A DNA stretch of 64,000 bases from Thermococcaceae archaeon (GTDB lineage Archaea; Methanobacteriota_B; Thermococci; Thermococcales; Thermococcaceae): NCBI GenBank assembly GCA_030156945.1, contig JASGLT010000007.1:1-64000 (forward strand), written 5' to 3'. The notes below the pieces were generated by a model. The model saw only the letters and a list, made by a program, of their open reading frames with translations, had not been told where the DNA came from and made no database searches. Of this stretch, positions 5,446-64,000 are shown one piece after another. A program made the translations under genes and the position numbers. Position 1 is the stretch's first letter. Each line of letters opens with the position of its first letter.

Positions 5446-5533
5446 GCGGGGGTAGCCGAGCCTGGCCAAAGGCGCGGGATTTAGGGTCCCGTCCCGTAGG
5501 GGTTCCGGGGTTCAAATCCCCGCCCCCGCACCA
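5446..5533 (+). tRNA. tRNA-Leu (anticodon TAG)
   Basis: A complete class II tRNA. The acceptor stem GCGGGGG (5446-5452) pairs with CCCCCGC (5523-5529), followed by A and an encoded CCA (5531-5533). The anticodon stem CGGGA/TCCCG (5475-5479, 5487-5491) closes the loop TTTAGGG, placing TAG at 5482-5484, which reads leucine CUA/CUG codons. A long variable arm follows and the T arm is CGGGG-TTCAAAT-CCCCG. No intron is present. Confidence 0.96.
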
Positions 5534-16851: not shown

Positions 16852-16938
16852 GCCGGGGTAGCCTAGCCTGGGAAGGCGCGGGACTCGAGATCCCGTGGGC
16901 GTCCGCCCACCAGGGTTCAAATCCCTGCCCCGGCGCCA
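16852..16938 (+). tRNA. tRNA-Ser (anticodon CGA)
   Basis: A complete class II tRNA. The acceptor stem GCCGGGG (16852-16858) pairs with CCCCGGC (16928-16934), followed by G and encoded CCA. The anticodon stem CGGGA/TCCCG closes the loop CTCGAGA with CGA at 16886-16888, reading UCG. The variable arm is long (GGGCG/CGCCC type), as expected for serine, and the T loop is TTCAAAT. No intron. Confidence 0.96.
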
Positions 16939-59766: not shown

Positions 59767-60948
59767 ATGATAGTCGAGAAGGCCAGCGAAGTGCTTGAGA
59801 GGTATCAGCTTTGCGACCACTGTCTTGGCAGGCTGTTCGCAAAGCTTGGGAAGGGAACTAACGAGGAGAGGGGAAAGGCGATAAGGTTCGTTCTCAACAT
59901 GGAGCGGGCTAAAGAGGGTCTCCCACCGGTGGAAGAGCCCAAGGAATGTGAGCTATGCAACAATGTTTTTGATAGAATTCCTGAGCTTGTCGAGAAGATG
60001 AAAGAAACAAGTGGGAACGTTGAGTTTGATACTTTTCTCGTGGGTTCGAGGTTTCCTGATGAGATTATGGAGAAAGAGAGGGCAATCTGGGATGAGTTTG
60101 GAATAGAAGCCGCCGAGCCGATAAACCGCGAGTTCAACCGCGAGCTCGGAAAGGCCTTTGGGAAGGCAACCGAAAAGGACACCTCAAAAAGTCCGGACGT
60201 TGTCTTCATAGCCGAACCTTATACTGGAAAAATCGAGCTCCAGATAAACCCCCTCTACATTTACGGCCGTTATAGAAAACTTGTTCGGGGAATACCTCAG
60301 ACACCACATCCGGACTTCGAGGAGAGCGTTGCATCGATAATCTGCCGTCCGTTTTCCAGGGCAACCGGAGGGAAGTGCGTTTTTAAAGGAGCTGGGAGAG
60401 AGGACGTTGACGTTAGGATGCTCGGCAAAGGGAGGCCCTTCATTCTGGAGATAAAGCGCCCGAAGAGGAGAAAGATTGACCTCGAAGGGATAGCGAGGGA
60501 AATCAACGCAAGTGGAAAGGTCGAAGTGCTTAACCTGAGGTTCACCACTCCAGACGAAGCTGAGAAAGTTCTCTCGACACCTCACCGAAAGGAGTATCTC
60601 GCCCTTGTGCTTGTGGAGGAGGGCGTTACTCCTGAAGAAGCCGAGGAAGTTGCTAAAAAGCTCACTGGGCTTGAGATTCACCAGAGGACACCCTGGAGGG
60701 TCAGGAAGGCGAGGGCCGACAAGGTGAGGGTGAGGAGGGTTCACCACGCCGAGGCTAAGTGGATAGACGAAAAGCACTTCGAGCTGAGGCTCATTACCGA
60801 CGGCGGCCTCTACATAAAGGAACTCATCTCCGGGGACAAGGGAAGGACGAAGCCGAGCGTCAGCGACCTTCTCGGCAAGTCAGCATGGTGTGAGCGGCTC
60901 GACGTTTTAAACGTTCTCGATGAGCAGAGCTCTGGGGACTCTTCTTAG
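59767..60948 (+). CDS. pus10: tRNA pseudouridine synthase Pus10
   Basis: A 393-residue enzyme that makes pseudouridine at tRNA positions 54 and 55 in archaea. An N-terminal THUMP-containing region carries a zinc site (Cys16, Cys19, Cys61, Cys64: CDHC...CELC). The catalytic Asp is in GREDVDVRMLGKGRPF (Asp213 or 215, about residues 210-225). The C-terminal thumb includes RVRRVHHAEAKWID and GGLYIKELISGDKGRTKPS. The start at 59767 follows GGTGGGAGC. It ends 12 bases before the promoter of rpl21e. Confidence 0.95.
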   Translation: MIVEKASEVLERYQLCDHCLGRLFAKLGKGTNEERGKAIRFVLNMERAKEGLPPVEEPKECELCNNVFDRIPELVEKMKETSGNVEFDTFLVGSRFPDEIMEKERAIWDEFGIEAAEPINREFNRELGKAFGKATEKDTSKSPDVVFIAEPYTGKIELQINPLYIYGRYRKLVRGIPQTPHPDFEESVASIICRPFSRATGGKCVFKGAGREDVDVRMLGKGRPFILEIKRPKRRKIDLEGIAREINASGKVEVLNLRFTTPDEAEKVLSTPHRKEYLALVLVEEGVTPEEAEEVAKKLTGLEIHQRTPWRVRKARADKVRVRRVHHAEAKWIDEKHFELRLITDGGLYIKELISGDKGRTKPSVSDLLGKSAWCERLDVLNVLDEQSSGDSS

Positions 60949-60959
60949 AGTAGGTGAAA

Positions 60960-60970
60960 AATTTATAAAC
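60960..60970 (+). promoter_or_regulatory. TATA box of the rpl21e transcript
   Basis: AATTTATAAAC; expected start near 60990, which leaves an unusually long leader of about 130 bases before the rpl21e ATG. Confidence 0.6.
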
Positions 60971-60992
60971 GCTTCACCAGAGGCAATACTGA

Positions 60993-61043
60993 TTCCCGGA
61001 CCGGGTTAGTTGGTAAACTGGTGCGAAAAGATAAGTCCGGGAA
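60993..61043 (+). ncRNA. Structured RNA leader (or separate sRNA) before rpl21e
   Basis: TTCCCGGAC (60993-61001) pairs perfectly with GTCCGGGAA (61035-61043). Inside, GTTAGTT (61005-61011) pairs with AACTGGT (61016-61022) around a GGTA loop using four Watson-Crick and three G-U pairs. A GC-rich fold directly after the promoter in an otherwise AT-rich spacer suggests a stable RNA or a cis-regulatory leader. I cannot assign it to a known RNA family. Confidence 0.55.
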
Positions 61044-61117
61044 ATTCGTGAAAAGACTGGATTCCCCTTTGGGAGTTGCTGGATTTAGTGGTTAAAGACA
61101 CCTGTGAGGTGATTGGA

Positions 61118-61414
61118 ATGGTTAAGAAGGCGCACAGCTTCAGGAGGAAGACGAGGGGCAAGCTGAGCAAGCACCCGAGGAGAAGGGGCCTTCCGCCGCT
61201 CACCCGGTTCCTTCAGGAGTTTGAGGTCGGGCAGAAGGTTCACATCGTCATCGAGCCGAGCTACCACAAGGGCATGCCCGACCCCAGGTTCCACGGGAGG
61301 ACGGGAACAGTCGTCGGCAAGCGCGGAGACACTTACGTCGTCCAGATAACCGACGGCGGGAAGGTTAAGACCTTCTTCATACACCCCGTCCACCTCAGGC
61401 CCCAGAAGGGATGA
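61118..61414 (+). CDS. rpl21e: 50S ribosomal protein L21e
   Basis: A 98-residue ribosomal protein of the large subunit in archaea and eukaryotes. The basic N-terminus [20 protein letters not shown] and the KOW-like core ([26 protein letters not shown]) are diagnostic. The ATG at 61118 follows GAGGTGATTGGA; the frame to 61076 is leader. It opens the conserved archaeal run L21e - RpoF - DUF655 - KsgA, and the spacing to rpoF is 2 bases. Confidence 0.97.
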
Positions 61415-61416
61415 TT

Positions 61417-61779
61417 ATGATCGGGAGAAAAAAGCTTGAAGAACACTACATCACAGTGCCAGAGGCCAAAGAGCTCCTTGAAAGGCGGAAAGCCGAGGGG
61501 ATGGAAGAAAACCCCGAGGAGCTCATATTCTATGAGGCCAGGGTCAGTCTTGAGCATGCCGAGCGCTTTTCAAAGCTCAAGCCAGAGCAGGCCAAGGAAC
61601 TCAAAGAAAAGCTTACCGGCCTTTTTGAGTGGCTCGATGAGCGGCTTGCTACAAAGATAGTGGACCTGATGCCTGAGGACTACTTTGACATCAGGGTTAT
61701 TTTCTCCAAGGAAGACTATATGCCAACTCCCGAAGAGGCAGAGGAGATAATAAAGCTCCTCGACGAATACCGGGAGTGA
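61417..61779 (+). CDS. rpoF: DNA-directed RNA polymerase subunit F (Rpb4)
   Basis: A 120-residue subunit equal to eukaryotic Rpb4, which together with subunit E (Rpb7) forms the polymerase stalk. The sequence EEHYITVPEAKELLERR at the start and LPEDYFDIRVIF-like MPEDYFDIRVIFSKEDY near the end identify it. The ATG at 61417 is preferred to 61411 because GGGATGATT stands before it. Translation is coupled to rpl21e. Confidence 0.94.
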   Translation: MIGRKKLEEHYITVPEAKELLERRKAEGMEENPEELIFYEARVSLEHAERFSKLKPEQAKELKEKLTGLFEWLDERLATKIVDLMPEDYFDIRVIFSKEDYMPTPEEAEEIIKLLDEYRE

Positions 61780-61849
61780 CCACCTTTTCTATTTCCCTTA
61801 ACAAAGTATAAAAACTCTTGAGATAATAACGAATTCTGGGGGAGTGAAA

Positions 61850-64000
<2,151 letters not shown>

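Follow-up and report, generated by a model that had tools for sequence, protein, structure and literature searches.

A conserved structured element in the rpl21e mRNA leader of a Thermococcaceae clade is a candidate ribosomal-protein leader

The window analyzed here is the whole 64,000-nucleotide stretch of contig JASGLT010000007.1 from a Thermococcaceae archaeon, and all features of the rpl21e locus described below lie on its forward (+) strand. The gene rpl21e (61118-61414) encodes ribosomal protein eL21, as indicated by a Pfam match (PF01157, E = 1.8e-35) and by matches of its product to the eL21 chains of archaeal ribosomes, e.g., 6skf. Its upstream neighbor, assigned by Pfam, is pus10 (59767-60948). 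Downstream, at 61411-63285, Pfam identifies the genes for the RNA polymerase subunit Rpo4 (Rpb4), a DUF655 protein and the rRNA dimethylase KsgA/Dim1; the cluster thus links a ribosomal protein, an RNA polymerase subunit and an rRNA methylase. The rpo4 gene adjoins rpl21e in every Thermococcaceae locus checked, and DUF655 and then ksgA come after rpo4 in nearly all loci with enough sequence. Elsewhere in the window, ARAGORN reports a tRNA-Leu with anticodon tag at 5446-5533 (+) that has no match to the Rfam tRNA model at gathering score, unlike the tRNA-Ser at 16852, which this model does report at that score.

The first-pass annotation had noted a gap of about 130 bases between the promoter and the start of rpl21e, and this distance held up. 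A BRE/TATA promoter (GGTGAAAAATTTATAAAC, 60953-60970) is the sole strong promoter before the gene, and it receives the top score of all positions in the window with a PWM that was built from 25 distinct rpl21e promoters and therefore favors this site by construction (a partly circular result). With initiation ~23 nt past the TATA box (PMC4247193), the transcript is predicted to start near 60990 and to carry a 5' untranslated leader of ~127 nt (60990-61117). A second promoter near 61090, which would have shortened this leader, was not seen: no comparable site is present between 61000 and 61112, where the best PWM score is -6 as against 26. The length of the leader alone is unremarkable, since in T. 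kodakarensis, where the median leader is 16 nt long, ~20% of leaders measure 50-300 nt and ribosomal-protein genes own 21 of the 245 long ones (PMC4247193). L21 is not named in the main texts of the papers on Thermococcales transcription starts.

The 5' part of the predicted leader holds a conserved core element (60990-61043), delimited by its identity in the leaders L005-L010 and by a covariance model. Within it, the 5' strand of stem P1 (TTCCCGGAC, 60993-61001) forms a perfect 9-bp stem with the 3' strand (GTCCGGGAA, 61035-61043), as the first-pass annotation had proposed; when the leader was shuffled 1000 times, 10 of the shuffles contained a perfect stem of at least 9 bp. The second hairpin that had been placed inside this stem is likewise borne out as P2 (61005-61022), in which GTTAGTT (61005-61011) pairs with AACTGGT (61016-61022) across a GGTA loop. 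Between P2 and the 3' strand of P1 lies the segment GCGAAAAG (61023-61030), which is kept in types A and B of the leaders described below. Of 200 shuffles of the region spanning P1 and P2 (60985-61048), only two are as stable as the native sequence (z = -2.7). Folding of the whole leader is ordinary (z = -0.9 versus shuffles).

Downstream of the core, a small TCCC/GGGA hairpin had also been proposed. It does exist (ATTCCC/GGGAGT, 61061-61076, with arms at 61061-61066 and 61071-61076), but it lies outside the conserved element: it is present only in the window species and L002-L004 (four close species), and the stretch around it, 61044-61135, shows no unusual stability (z = +0.2). The Shine-Dalgarno sequence GAGGTGAT is located at 61106-61113, and a GAGGTGRT-like sequence occurs in most leaders. 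In the window's clade it could possibly be covered by a hairpin CACCT/AGGTG (61099-61111), which comprises 5 bp in the window and in L002/L003, 4 bp in L004, and is weaker or absent in the other types, so that it is not generally kept.

Leaders were collected from 94 genomes of Thermococcaceae. The regions preceding rpl21e comprise 89 distinct sequences, of which 81 were assigned to a type of long leader (27 of types A/B, 30 of type C, 16 of type G and 8 of type P), all from Thermococcaceae and with predicted lengths of ~64-135 nt. The remainder consists of four leaderless sequences from genera g2 and g6 (L105, L111, L035 (=L117) and L039 (=L110)), one short leader (L038), one sequence truncated where its contig stops (L033) and two sequences of other archaea (L040, L041). 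In g2 and g6 the leader is missing because virtually nothing separates pus10 from the rpl21e gene behind it, an arrangement in which its control may have been replaced or lost. In L038 (=L128), a species of the window's own genus, the leader that follows the TATA box measures just ~32 nt, in contrast to its relatives.

The types differ in structure. When folding was extrapolated to 85°C, P1 was still predicted in type A, and P2 too in the window sequence; types B and P were predicted to fold only marginally, and types C and G mostly not at all. Type B stems comprise 5-7 bp; in types C and G long stems are absent, and stability barely exceeds that of shuffles, if at all. Outside type A, with short stems and folding near the shuffle mean, rpl21e leaders thus lack the strong fold that marks the window's clade. 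Types A, B and C nevertheless have a kernel in common, GG(C/G)UUAG...GnGAARAG, which is found in 22 of the 27 A/B and 26 of the 30 C leaders; its UUAG begins 12-16 nt past the predicted +1, and its chance occurrence is ~2-7e-5 per leader for a pattern that was chosen after seeing the data. Type C carries GC(C)GAARAG, a close variant of GCGAAAAG, at a similar distance from the predicted start. The G and P leaders, from other genera and Pyrococcus, instead show a GGGNAAAGACCC-like hairpin near the predicted start (e.g., L046, L071, L116 and L127), possibly a second, unrelated leader kernel for rpl21e.

The pairing was assessed in alignment A2, which contains the twelve distinct type A sequences; the test was limited to this type because the MAFFT alignment of A with B misaligns P1. 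In these twelve species the pairing has been kept with compensatory changes. P1 pairs are intact in 94% of the alignment cells, and two of them have changed on both sides, column 14-58 varying between G-C, A-U and C-G and column 11-61 between C-G and G-C. Sliding the partner strand of P1 destroyed the pairing, leaving far fewer cells paired. The covariation score was 0.166 compared with 0.090 in shuffles, with none of 500 shuffles as high, although kinship among sequences can push covariation above shuffles without any structure. P2 is paired in 91% of cells with one-sided changes only (U-G to U-A, G-U to G-C) and is absent in L029/L036. With this caveat on related sequences, the compensatory changes in P1 provide good but not overwhelming evidence; the events are modest in number and restricted to type A. 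RNAalifold on the whole leaders of all A/B sequences yielded no consensus fold, and the sequence-only model R1 added little.

Sequence conservation is concentrated in the same place. In L005-L010, the core (60990-61043) is 81-93% identical to the window, the rest of the leader (61044-61099) only 45-54%, and the third codon positions of pus10, where this gene lies directly upstream, 42-57%. Within A and B, the bases that do not pair in P1 (GGTTAG and GCGAAAAG) are the most conserved while the sequence of P1 changes, which is the pattern expected of a recognition site.

The core is specific to this locus. The type A covariance model R2 gave one match per genome, at the rpl21e leader, in 12 of the 94 genomes, and two weak matches elsewhere that were near chance; a direct DNA search found no second copy in the window's own genome. 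The core is also retained where pus10 is not directly upstream (L006, L008, L009, L053, L057, L064 and L070). A known riboswitch or other RNA family, for which an Rfam search had been suggested, did not emerge, as the leader has no match at gathering score. The best permissive match (sR2, 14.6 bits against a cut-off of 42) lies over the start codon and was rejected; no C/D box was found by eye. A kink-turn (a bulge followed by tandem G-A pairs) was not recognised in the core by eye. None of the 81 leaders contains a run of five T, so that the T-run past the structure expected of an intrinsic-termination attenuator is lacking; control is therefore unlikely to act by termination and more likely to act on translation.

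No similarity to 23S rRNA was detected by local alignment, profile or covariance model, and local alignments of each leader type to 23S remained within the shuffle range. A likeness of 'TGATT...GGGGGTTAG' to TGATTGGGGGTTTAG at the base of 23S H38, first noticed by eye, was discarded because TGATT sits on the predicted start in A/B, because GATT lies upstream of the start in type C, and because the profile and covariance searches of 23S were empty there. A second resemblance, to GGGTTAGTC...CCTAAG of 23S domain III, was judged by eye. Across the rRNA loci, the top covariance match (13.8 bits) falls before the 23S gene, apparently within 16S, and was put down to chance.

Ribosomal-protein leaders (r-leaders) are an established class that includes four archaeal candidates (PMC7247131) and the L7Ae leader (PMC5539422). 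Like members of this class, the element belongs to the 5' untranslated region of an mRNA for a ribosomal protein, as judged by the predicted start and the promoter at 60953-60970; it is consistently associated with one ribosomal-protein gene, the core being found only before rpl21e; and in type A it has a conserved secondary structure with compensatory changes. We therefore tentatively read it as an r-leader through which surplus eL21 feeds back on its own mRNA, a plausible proposal that we hold with less than even confidence. In this mechanism, the first ~54 nt of the leader would fold such that P1 encloses P2 and the conserved unpaired GCGAAAAG. Surplus eL21 that is not on rRNA would bind this core on its own mRNA and thereby lower translation initiation of rpl21e, and the repression might extend to the downstream rpo4-DUF655-ksgA genes. 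Among the three functions offered in the first-pass annotation (an autoregulation site, a riboswitch-like element or an independent small RNA), a regulatory leader fits best, and the small RNA is disfavored. Several observations speak against autoregulation by eL21. Resemblance to the protein's rRNA binding site, a frequent but not obligatory trait that supports some r-leaders, did not emerge from the searches of 23S; only type A has the strong stem; ~60 nt separate P1 from the Shine-Dalgarno sequence, and the hairpin that could cover the latter is not generally kept; some genomes are without the leader (g2/g6) or have one of ~32 nt (L038); and, with rpo4 adjoining rpl21e in every Thermococcaceae locus checked, gene order does not single out eL21.

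A rather unlikely alternative is that the stem protects the 5' end of an abundant mRNA by blocking 5'-3' decay by an exonuclease of the aRNase J type, for which no ligand would be needed. The predicted start and the first base of P1 are at most ~3 nt apart, the P-type leaders of Pyrococcus also have a GGGG/CCCC hairpin near the start, and type A stems are predicted to stay folded at 85°C. Protection would not, however, require loop and junction bases that are more conserved than the stem, it would leave a further 60-70 nt of leader unexplained, and types C and G are predicted to have no stable 5' stem at 85°C.

The leader could also be regulatory but respond to another ligand, be it a product of this gene cluster such as Rpo4 or KsgA, a different ribosomal protein, L7Ae or a small molecule; we regard this as unlikely. 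Behind rpl21e, nearly all genomes carry rpo4, DUF655 and ksgA, and no rRNA mimicry speaks for eL21 as the ligand. On the other hand, rpl21e is the first gene and the nearest to the leader, no Rfam riboswitch or family matches, and the core shows no kink-turn recognisable by eye.

It is improbable that the long leader has no function, having persisted through drift with a fortuitous stem that the species share by descent. Ordinary folding of the whole leader, the different leader types between clades and the tendency of shuffles to overstate covariation among related sequences are in line with this idea, but the far higher identity of the core than of the adjoining leader and the pus10 third positions in the same species, together with the compensatory changes in P1, speak against it. 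Some Thermococcales 5' leaders do yield stable small RNAs (PMC3124441), but an independent or processed small RNA, e.g., a guide RNA, that happens to precede rpl21e is very improbable, given that there is no terminator-like T-run, no separate rpl21e promoter, no Rfam match and no copy of the core elsewhere, and that the core stays with rpl21e when the upstream gene changes.

Returning to autoregulation by eL21, the leader types allow a broader and more doubtful conjecture, namely that such a leader has been rebuilt several times within one family (A, B and C, with G and P elsewhere), with the kernel kept in A to C, as natural solutions for one near-invariant protein rather than as rRNA mimicry. 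Few cis-regulatory RNAs are known in archaea, and leader control of translation there is poorly understood. The rpl21e element is small, and its genus has a genetic model species, T. kodakarensis; the natural leader types could serve to test the recognition of diverging RNAs by a single ribosomal protein at temperatures of 85°C or higher.

The eL21 leader is a new candidate beside the published archaeal ones, which are L4, eL15 and S15 (PMC7247131) and L7Ae (PMC5539422); eL21 is absent from the main text of PMC7247131. Like the eL15, S15 and L4 candidates (Eckert and Weinberg, 2020), it is structured, restricted to a lineage, associated with a single gene and marked by covariation, but it belongs to another gene, matches no Rfam model and shows no rRNA mimicry that could be found. 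The L7Ae leader (PMC5539422, PMC6298567) is likewise a leader structure on an archaeal ribosomal-protein mRNA proposed for autoregulation; it is a kink-turn bound by L7Ae, whereas none was recognised by eye in the rpl21e core. Thermococcales also have the sscA RNA (PMC4247193), which is similarly embedded in the long leader of a translation gene, but that gene is a different one, EF1-alpha, and sscA was described as an RNA of unknown function. Finally, five separate L31 leader motifs (PMC7247131) likewise represent several architectures before one gene across lineages; those motifs are bacterial, whereas the rpl21e types all come from a single archaeal family, with a kernel common to A, B and C.
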